The notes under the pieces: generated by a model
What the model saw: only the letters and a program-made list of their open reading frames with translations
Databases searched by the model: none
What the model was told of the DNA's origin: nothing
Origin: a virus
Reading direction: 5' to 3' (one strand)
Length of the DNA: 24,501 nucleotides
IMG/VR virus record: IMGVR_UViG_3300042946_000292
Location: 1-24,501 of that record
Shown here: piece after piece, positions 20,464 to 22,841 of the stretch
Numbering within the stretch: position 1 is the first letter of the stretch
Layout of the letters: each line of letters begins with the position of its first letter
Program-made: the position numbers and the translations under genes

Positions 20464-21228
20464 TTAAAAGGGTTGGTTTCTTTTTTCAAAATAGTTCACC
20501 AGGAGCGGGGTCTTTTCGTAAGCTGCAACGAAGTGATCTTTGTTTACCGGTTCATGGTACATCAATTCCGTTCTCAATTCCGATTCGGTTTTGAATTGGT
20601 CGAAGAATAGTTTGCAAGCATAGGCGCACGCACTGGCATTGTTCCGGAAATCGCTTTGGTCACCGCCACGATTCACCAGGGAACCGAGCATGATTGTTAA
20701 GTTCAACCGCTTTGCCATTTCGAAGCAGTAATCCTTTTGCTCTTTGGTTAGACCGTAGCTGTGGTGTTTGTAGATTGCTTCGTACGTTACCCCACCAAAG
20801 TCAAAGAACTTGGCCATGTCGCAGTTGTTTTCGTGGTATTGCCGGTAGGAAGAAACGATCCATGCTTTGCGCTGTGACATTGGGTATTTGATGTCGTATT
20901 TCTTTTGGTCGGTTTGAACTGCGGGTAGTTGGTGAATGGTGTGGTTTGATTTGTTGAAACGGACCATGTACTGGGAAACCCATTGAATGATTAACCGGAT
21001 TGAAGGCTTGAATGAATCGCTTGAGTTTCTACGTCCGAACTTCAAAGCTTCTTCAAATTGCTCGGTTGTGAGTGAGTGATACACTTCGAGGTCTTCTTGA
21101 AGGGTGGTCACCTGGCGAATTAGATTGTCATCAACACCGACATTGTTTCCAAAGTAGGAGTAAAGGTTTAGGAGTTGATTGGTTAGATACTTGATAGCAT
21201 CTTTTTTGTCCATTTGCTTGATAGTCAT
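20464..21228 (-). CDS. Replication-associated protein (possible helicase-loader analogue)
   Basis: 254 residues, helical, soluble, without a Walker motif, so not an ATPase loader of the DnaC type. Notable blocks: VDDNLIRQVTTLQEDLEVYH, LTTEQFEEALKFGRRNSSDS (helix plus Arg-rich turn), SYRQYHENNCDMAKFFDFGG, and RNNASACAYACKLFFDQFKT near the C-terminus. It follows the winged-helix gene by 7 nt. In many phages an initiator gene is directly followed by a helicase loader or partner, and that context is the main basis for the call. I do not recognise the family. An alternative is a structural partner of the initiator. Confidence 0.5.
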   Translation of the reverse strand: MTIKQMDKKDAIKYLTNQLLNLYSYFGNNVGVDDNLIRQVTTLQEDLEVYHSLTTEQFEEALKFGRRNSSDSFKPSIRLIIQWVSQYMVRFNKSNHTIHQLPAVQTDQKKYDIKYPMSQRKAWIVSSYRQYHENNCDMAKFFDFGGVTYEAIYKHHSYGLTKEQKDYCFEMAKRLNLTIMLGSLVNRGGDQSDFRNNASACAYACKLFFDQFKTESELRTELMYHEPVNKDHFVAAYEKTPLLVNYFEKRNQPF

Positions 21229-21235
21229 ATTTGGT

Positions 21236-21988
21236 TTATTTAATGATTTTGCTTGCTACAAATTCCGCTATTTCATCGGCGGTCATGCTGTTTGCATCGT
21301 GTTTCTTTTTGGGTCGTTCCACTTGCTTGTTGTTCCAGTGGATGAAGTGGTCGAACATTTTGTATTGGTTGGTGTAAGTGTTTCCTTTCAGCAGTCCAAA
21401 GTTCTTAAAATTCTCGCATCGTTCCAAAACTTTTTCTTCCGATAGTTGGAAGTTGGAGTGGAAGATATGCATCCGGGAATTGACCTGGTCCATGAAGGAA
21501 TCCCACAGCTGTTCGATGCTTTTTTCGGGTGTTCCAAAAGGTTCAATTTTGCTCTTATTATTATTAGTAAGTAATTCTTTCTTCCTTATTCTTTCTTCTT
21601 TCTTATTTATGTGCACGGATTCGCTAAAATTTTTTAATAGCATTTGTTCATTTTCTTTTATCGAATGTGAGAATGATTCTTCAATAGTGCACGTATTCGC
21701 TAAAAATTTTTTATCGAATATGATACGAATTGTCGGTGCTTGGTTCTTCTTCCCAGGCTCGATTATTTGTACCAATCCCTTCGATTCCAAACCTTCCAAA
21801 GTACGGTAGTATGTAGGCATGGATAGGTTAAGATGCGCCGAGGTTGTTCGAGTTGGTAACCCAAACATTTCCGTTCTAAGCGTGTTTTGTAAGTTGATAA
21901 TAACAAACATCAACGCAATCTCATTCGTGGTGAGATAGCCATCCTTAATGATCGCATTTAGCTTGAAATTGTAATCGATTAGGTTCAT
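21236..21988 (-). CDS. Winged-helix replication initiator-like protein
   Basis: 250 residues from ATG 21988. The N-terminal ~100 residues form a winged helix: NEIALMFVIINLQNTLR, PTRTTSAHLNLSMPTYYRTL, EGLESKGLVQIIEPGKKNQA. This is the MarR/DnaD-type arrangement common at the start of phage replication proteins. A Lys/Asn-rich linker follows (NKKEERIRKKELLTNNNKSK). The C-terminal ~90 residues, with LWDSFMDQVNSRMHIFHSNF and QYKMFDHFIHWNNKQVERPK, resemble the tail domain of such initiators. It would bind the phage origin and bring in the host helicase. An earlier in-frame TTG (22060) would add 24 residues across the structured leader; I prefer the ATG since the leader is clearly structured. Confidence 0.65.
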   Translation of the reverse strand: MNLIDYNFKLNAIIKDGYLTTNEIALMFVIINLQNTLRTEMFGLPTRTTSAHLNLSMPTYYRTLEGLESKGLVQIIEPGKKNQAPTIRIIFDKKFLANTCTIEESFSHSIKENEQMLLKNFSESVHINKKEERIRKKELLTNNNKSKIEPFGTPEKSIEQLWDSFMDQVNSRMHIFHSNFQLSEEKVLERCENFKNFGLLKGNTYTNQYKMFDHFIHWNNKQVERPKKKHDANSMTADEIAEFVASKIIK

Positions 21989-21990
21989 GG

Positions 21991-22079
21991 TAAAAATAAA
22001 CCCCACCGAGGGGTGTATAGCGGTACACGTCCAAGGCAGGGTTATTAGTTTTTTATTCAAGGCGATTCCGCTAAATCGC
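21991..22079 (-). promoter_or_regulatory. Structured leader with complementary hairpin loops and terminator-like hairpin
   Basis: In the minus-strand transcript the first hairpin is GCGATT-TAGCGG-AATCGC (22079-22062). The second is GTGTA-CCGCTA-TACAC (22028-22013). The two 6-nt loops are perfectly complementary. A third hairpin ACCCC-TCGGT-GGGGT (22014-22000) is followed by a T-rich tract (TTATTTTTA) ending 2 nt before the ATG. The second and third hairpins share two bases (22013-22014), so they cannot both be complete. This looks like an attenuator or translational switch for the initiator gene. Confidence 0.5.
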
Positions 22080-22093
22080 TTTTTTTACTTCAA

Positions 22094-22101
22094 CAAAGGT
22101 A
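22094..22101 (-). promoter_or_regulatory. Probable promoter -7 box for the replication genes
   Basis: Minus strand TACCTTTG, a perfect TAnnTTTG box, in the 113-nt intergenic space after a terminator and ahead of the initiator leader. The -33 TTTG is not found at the expected ~19 nt distance (AGCA stands there), so the promoter may be weak or activator-dependent. Confidence 0.45.
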
Positions 22102-22125: not shown

Positions 22126-22162
22126 AAAAAACGTGACAAATTTTATCTTGTAATTGTCACGT
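22126..22162 (-). terminator. Rho-independent terminator of the first gene block
   Basis: Minus strand ACGTGACAA (22162-22154), 14-nt loop, TTGTCACGT (22139-22131), a perfect 9-bp stem, followed by a run of six T. It stands 11 nt after the stop of the 22174-22383 gene. It could also serve as an operator, being a perfect inverted repeat just upstream of a promoter. Confidence 0.75.
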
Positions 22163-22173
22163 CAGGTTTAACC

Positions 22174-22383
22174 TTACGAACCGCATCCAAAACATTCAAA
22201 GTTTGAATCCTCGGGTTTTTGTGGTTCTACCTTGCCAATCAGTTGTTTGATTTCAAAGATCTCCTGGCGTAGCTGAAATTGGTGGTCATCCATGGTTCCG
22301 TCTAATTGATTCTCCAAGTACGACATCTTCCACTTCAAAGCTTCAACGTCCTGGGCGTTCTGTGGTTTTTGATATTTGCTCAT
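22174..22383 (-). CDS. Small protein with C-terminal CFGCGS
   Basis: 69 residues. A helical coiled-coil-like region (AQDVEALKWKMSYLENQLDG, DDHQFQLRQEIFEIKQLIGK) makes up most of it, followed by a Pro/Glu linker and ECFGCGS at the very end, a CxxC pair. It may be a dimeric protein with a metal-binding or redox tip. No family is recognised. The start directly abuts the stop of the previous gene, and it is the last gene before the terminator. Confidence 0.55.
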   Translation of the reverse strand: MSKYQKPQNAQDVEALKWKMSYLENQLDGTMDDHQFQLRQEIFEIKQLIGKVEPQKPEDSNFECFGCGS

Positions 22384-22604: not shown

Positions 22605-22841
22605 CTATTCGTTTAATAGGATTGACCCATTGTTATTTTCCGGGAAAAATCCACTGGAAGCACGGCTCCGTTCTGTGGCCTTCACGTAATCGACTTCAAC
22701 CTTCGCTGAATTGATAATCACCTGGGCGATGTCGGCCACTGCTTTGGCACGATCTAACTCGATTGGCTTGTCTTCATCCAACAAAGCTTCCATGGTCGCA
22801 AATAAGTGATTGCGTAAGTCTTCAATTTTGTTCTTTGGCAT
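22605..22841 (-). CDS. Conserved small phage protein, function unknown
   Basis: 78 residues, helical: MPKNKIEDLRNHLFATMEAL, then DKPIELDRAKAVADIAQVII, then NSAKVEVDYVKATERSRASS. I recognise the '(L)RNHLF.T.EAL.D...... .rAKAiAdvAQVIinsAKVEVDy.K' pattern as a common small gene in phages of several bacterial groups, but its function is not known to me. It overlaps the HNH gene end by 20 nt and is 2 nt from the AP2-like gene start. Confidence 0.65.
   Translation of the reverse strand: MPKNKIEDLRNHLFATMEALLDEDKPIELDRAKAVADIAQVIINSAKVEVDYVKATERSRASSGFFPENNNGSILLNE

Follow-up and report, generated by a model that had tools for sequence, protein, structure and literature searches.

A probable kissing-loop RNA leader at the head of a putative replication operon in Bacteroidota-type phages

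The DNA analysed here, referred to as the window, comprises 24,501 bases (positions 1-24,501 of the IMG/VR virus record IMGVR_UViG_3300042946_000292). Every listed main gene in the window is located on the minus strand (-), as are the leader and its parts. The first gene of the operon under study (21236-21988, with its ATG at 21988-21986) encodes a candidate O-like replication initiator. The predicted structure of this protein (mean pLDDT 65) consists of a wHTH, a disordered linker and a helical C-terminal part, and the model showed weak structural matches to MarR/CodY-type, DnaD and Rep N-terminal domains. PHROG replication-initiation families were matched at about 1e-5 by up to 2 of the 16 first-gene family members, and no match to these families was obtained for the window's own protein. 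The N-terminal part of the gene is exchangeable, a wHTH of either the MNLIDYN or the MTGYEI type being joined to common C-terminal halves; C-terminal halves of different types were also observed (21239-21988; L190, L194, L208, and L217). The second gene (20464-21228) encodes a helical protein, possibly a helicase loader, whose best match was the weak one to the lambda P loader (probability 0.44). It is thus plausible that the two genes encode an O/P-like replication operon. A PAPS reductase-like gene was seen by eye between the two in some phages (L055 and L209). The terminase of the window is about 40% identical to the terminases of Flavobacterium psychrophilum phages, and a Bacteroidota host is therefore likely. 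On the upstream side, a 78-aa protein (22605-22841) matched phrog_2044, annotated as "RNA polymerase beta subunit" (3.6e-19), which is an odd name for a protein of such size.

Upstream of the operon, the terminator-like inverted repeat ACGTGACAA-N14-TTGTCACGT, followed by T6 (22126-22162), probably closes the preceding gene block, and the leader should therefore have its own promoter. Promoters were called with the Bacteroidota -7 consensus TAHHTTTG, with G at -5, which was taken from work on Flavobacterium (PMC6847099). The matching element TACCTTTG lies at 22094-22101, and the RNA start predicted from it is at about 22089. The motif by itself occurs at chance frequency in the window, and what distinguishes this copy is its fixed distance from the first hairpin of the leader (HP1), which was found together with the element in 24 of the 25 leaders compared below. 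A palindrome, AGGTT(A/T)AACCT, lies upstream of the promoter at 22160-22176 and is a possible operator; a similar palindrome was observed near the -7 element in L016.

The predicted leader RNA is 101 nt long (21989-22089; 96-102 nt in the relatives). It begins with HP1 (22062-22079), a 6-bp stem GCGATT/AATCGC with the loop TAGCGG at 22073-22068, which starts at RNA nucleotide 10-12 in every leader with a recognised promoter. An A/T-rich linker (22044-22061; 15-18 nt in the relatives) leads to SL2 (21999-22043), a stem-loop of about 45 nt with several G-U pairs that was defined from the MFE fold, the folding energies and the pair counts. The original prediction held that HP1 and a second hairpin at 22028-22013 carry 6-nt loops that are exact reverse complements. 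The letters of the window agree, the second hairpin reading GTGTA-CCGCTA-TACAC with its loop at 22023-22018. This hairpin does exist at the predicted position, but it is merely the tip of the longer SL2. A third hairpin, ACCCC-TCGGT-GGGGT (22000-22014), is a weaker alternative fold, and a U-rich tract, TTTATTTTTA (21991-22000), recognised by its T content, stands at the base of SL2 and adjoins the AUG.

The minimum free energy of the window leader was -29.6 kcal/mol, lower than that of all 200 of 200 shuffles (z -3.0), and an equal kissing motif appeared in only 4 of 20,000 dinucleotide shuffles. SL2 of the window folded with -19.8 kcal/mol, compared with -8.0 kcal/mol for the third hairpin alone, and SL2 energies lay at about -20 to -25 kcal/mol. 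In the MFE fold of the window, a closing A-U helix (GUAAAAA/UUUUUAC) would create a three-way junction. Inspection of the relatives showed that this helix is not kept, and the junction was therefore rejected.

For a comparative test, 25 distinct leaders were assembled from relatives of the first gene, relatives of the second gene, and exact-pattern matches among related phage contigs. They fall into class A with 6-nt loops (TAGCGG/CCGCTA and TGGCGG/CCGCCA) and class B with 7-nt loops (GAGACAG/CTGTCTC, GGGACAG/CTGTCCC, and GTAGGAG/CTCCTAC). In all 25 leaders every loop base is paired in Watson-Crick fashion, with no broken or wobble loop-loop pair among the five loop pairs. The bases flanking the loops never extend the complementarity, which confines the contact to the loops. 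The loop helix of class B is 100% paired, and 4 of its 7 pairs are changed on both sides; GTAGGAG and GAGACAG, for instance, differ at 4 of 7 positions, every one of them compensated. Covariation was also found in both stems. Over the whole structure, class B held 18 double-change cells, compared with 4.7 in shuffles (0 of 500 reached 18), and class A held 12, compared with 2.9 (0 of 500), where double changes affect two pairs of HP1 and one pair between the loops. Relatedness among the sequences inflates these shuffle tests, while the control with slid class B partners, which keeps the relatedness, fell far below the observed values with 0-1 double-change cells. The compensatory changes are not all independent, the leaders being related and recombined, and many pairs are invariant. 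The sense strand contains many G-U pairs in the window and the relatives, so the conserved entity is the minus-strand RNA and not the DNA. As far as aligned sequences can demonstrate it, the covariation establishes the pairing of both the loops and the stems, and we consider it very probable that the kissing-loop RNA is real. These results bear out the proposal that a kissing-loop leader precedes the replication-initiator gene in a Bacteroidota-type phage.

Relatives that keep the gene and lose the complementarity of the loops would have spoken against the proposal. None was found except L219, the most distant operon (45% identity in gene 2), in which the folded leader differs and the start is A-rich, without the U-tract. 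Between two loops of this locus (L219:1885-2000), a 6-bp pairing that includes one G-U is possible but not clearly above chance. Where the gene lacked a leader directly upstream, either a methyltransferase gene intervened and was itself preceded by the leader, or the contig was truncated.

The leader behaves as a module. Its classes precede the two types of first gene (MNLIDYN or MTGYEI) or a Dcm-type methyltransferase ahead of the initiator, and every loop type found in more than one leader stands before at least two first genes. The leader thus heads the operon whichever gene is first, which fits control at the transcript level, and its position before differing first genes is an argument against the leader being recognised by the protein that the first gene encodes. 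The methyltransferase, a Dcm-type C5 DNA methyltransferase, was observed between leader and initiator in L030, L040, L041, and L067.

The fixed geometry and the U-tract were seen across the leaders. The last 12 nt contain 7-8 T in 25 of 25 leaders, and the first gene of the window ranks first among 37 genes in T content before the start (8 of 12). A stable stem-loop with a U-rich tract directly after it thus precedes the coding region, as expected of an intrinsic-terminator attenuator, although the tract is interrupted. In the original prediction the third hairpin served as the terminator, which the loop-loop contact would weaken by favouring the second hairpin. Neither part is upheld by the comparison: the third hairpin requires CCCC/GGGG and is present in only 5 of the 25 leaders, all of the window type, it is missing in the other 20, and its energy is far weaker than that of SL2. 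Moreover, SL2, which itself carries the second hairpin, is the stem-loop whose base leads into the U-tract, and the contact should therefore stabilise the putative terminator or roadblock.

We infer a pairing of the loops in cis, an attenuation of the operon and a step of release. HP1, about 10 nt from the 5' end, and then SL2 would fold during transcription, and the HP1 loop would kiss the SL2 loop over all 6 or 7 bases, which would lock SL2. The locked SL2, together with the U-rich tract beside the AUG, may attenuate the operon chiefly by stopping RNA polymerase, with a secondary effect through the crowding of the ribosome start site. The replication proteins would then stay at a low level, or appear late, until polymerase pausing, a phage or host protein, or a competing RNA opens the structure. 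We give an even chance to this reading, in which the leader is cis-acting and repressive and the kissing-locked SL2 with its U-tract attenuates the operon. The U-tract is interrupted (TTTATTATTT and TAATTTTTTT) and only weakly terminator-like, which counts against an attenuator. By our estimate, the 15-18 nt linker barely spans a stacked rod of HP1, kiss and SL2 of about 31 base pairs, and this also counts against it. Inspection of the aligned leaders revealed no conserved alternative (antiterminator) helix, that is, no conserved second, open conformation, and a switch is thus unseen.

The U-rich start could serve ribosome binding instead. The kissing-locked leader may accordingly be an element of translation or RNA stability that hinders access to the start site or else protects and positions it, with SL2 not acting as a terminator; we regard this as rather unlikely, though deserving of weight. 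Structure close to the 5' end could slow the decay of an RNA, and the imperfection of the U-tract also speaks for this view. The end of SL2 lies 8-11 nt before the AUG in the 25 leaders, within the region that tunes initiation in Flavobacterium, where initiation is reduced by structure close to the start codon and favoured by upstream adenines (PMC6847099). That preference for adenines is at the same time an argument on the other side, as the other genes of the window have on average 2.6 T and 5.8 A in the 12 nt before the start; A-rich starts are the rule in the window phage, and the U-rich start is exceptional. A further point against this view is that the leader stands before different genes, among them the methyltransferase in several phages.

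The loops might also act in trans, as a specificity tag through which leaders dimerise or a short leader RNA recognises other leaders, comparable to plasmid incompatibility or to immunity of the P4 type. Full-loop kissing over 6-7 bp is the geometry of antisense systems, the loop pairs are strongly diversified with compensation, as described above for GTAGGAG and GAGACAG, and attenuation would release a short RNA carrying both loops. In every leader, on the other hand, the two partners lie 39-44 nt from each other, so that pairing in cis should win over pairing in trans, and TAGCGG and CCGCTA do not occur elsewhere in the window above chance frequency. None of the 27 segments searched contained an antisense TAHHTTTG -7 element at less than about 480 nt from HP1, whereas 26 of them had the sense element. 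On this evidence a role in trans is improbable. A leader peptide was considered as well and rejected, as no reading frame is common to the 25 leaders. Plasmid-type antisense control is disfavoured by the lack of both an antisense -7 element and a conserved leader peptide. The likeness to copy-control leaders that had been pointed out originally is thereby weakened. A more speculative variant, to which we assign a low probability, is a loop tag between co-infecting phages, in which short attenuated leaders bind leaders with the same loops and provide an RNA-only control of copy number or superinfection. If this is true, the five loop types would be compatible with one another, as plasmids of different incompatibility groups are.

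Under a further reading, processive antitermination of the HK022 put type, the folded leader would accompany RNA polymerase and make it read through later terminators. The likeness to put lies in a structured RNA that opens a phage operon regardless of which gene comes first (PMC9378689). Such an element would not need the U-rich tract that SL2 abuts at the AUG, and classes A and B lack a clear common unpaired core as expected for recognition by the polymerase, which makes this reading very doubtful. It is still harder to believe that the locus acts at the DNA level, with the inverted repeats serving a protein, for instance the wHTH initiator, as operators or origin sites, and two inverted half-sites producing the complementarity as a by-product. 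The adjacent gene does encode a wHTH protein and repeats lie near the promoter, but the many conserved G-U pairs would break the symmetry of the DNA, the complementarity is exactly limited to the loops inside covarying stems, and the loop type does not follow the wHTH type; we ruled this reading out on account of the G-U pairs and that independence. Chance complementarity without function, conceivable for a single sequence because 6-nt loop matches do arise and one other loose match exists in the window, is refuted by the covariation of the five loop pairs across the 25 leaders and has a negligible probability.

Outside this phage group, no other carrier of the leader came to light in direct DNA searches of named phages and plasmids or in searches with the genes against named phages and 84,980 bacterial and archaeal genomes. 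No relative of either replication gene was confirmed in these genomes, and among the named phages the first gene gave one weak partial match and the second gene none. The DNA of the leader gave short, low-scoring matches or none against named phages and plasmids. No family in Rfam 15 matched at the gathering threshold across the whole window, where only sub-threshold chance matches were seen. In a pattern scan with the promoter and 5' end (TATNTTTGAAGCAGA), the matches listed were mostly in unrelated contigs, and a motif scan of the collected loci gave no further leader type.

Several known systems share part of this design. In the I-complex and IncL/M plasmids, the rep leader is switched by an antisense RNAI, and in the I-complex also through a leader peptide. 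These leaders (for example that of ColIb-P9 repZ; references in PMC10724649) are likewise structured, make a loop contact before a replication initiator, and have loop bases that matter and diversify. The phage leader differs in its full loop-to-loop contact and in that no RNAI or leader peptide was found for it. The RNAI/RNAII pair of ColE1 and the plasmid RNAI with SLI also have 6-7 nt loops pairing over most or all of their length; two RNAs take part there, whereas the phage leader holds both loops in one transcript, and no countertranscript promoter was seen for it. The pRNA of phi29 is a phage RNA with complementary loops too, but its loops join separate molecules of the packaging motor, whereas those described here lie in the mRNA leader of a replication operon. 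Guanidine-II (mini-ykkC) and other kissing-loop riboswitches resemble the leader in that two hairpins close to the 5' end of the mRNA touch through their loops. The guanidine-II riboswitch has fixed ACGR loops and a short C-G contact (PMC7357161), while the phage loops vary in complementary pairs and show no conserved ligand-pocket sequence across the classes. The put RNA of HK022 is a structured RNA heading a phage early operon as well; bound to RNA polymerase, it counteracts pausing and termination (PMC9378689), whereas the phage leader ends in a terminator-like U-tract. Structured regulatory leaders and kissing loops are thus already known, and no named system has all the features tested here. 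A module-shuffled phage replication leader with full loop contact and five matching pairs was not found in Rfam or in the open-access literature searched. The leader predicts a regulatory step heading phage replication in Bacteroidota, and its five natural loop pairs are ready variants for mutational tests and possible orthogonal RNA parts.

Some of the collected contigs showed unusual arrangements. The 41-kb record 3300042868_005071 (L013 and L055) carries two replication operons with different leader classes about 30 kb apart. Since genomes of this phage group are about 30 kb, it is likely a chimera of two phages, and no conclusion was drawn from this record. In L025 and L048, the T-rich ACCATG end of the leader is repeated at the junction before the initiator. 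L066 contains a hybrid leader (L066:6117-6230) with HP1 from one subtype and SL2 from another, in which the loops still match. This leader is followed by a frame of five codons (MTGYF and a stop), representing either a broken operon or an assembly joint.
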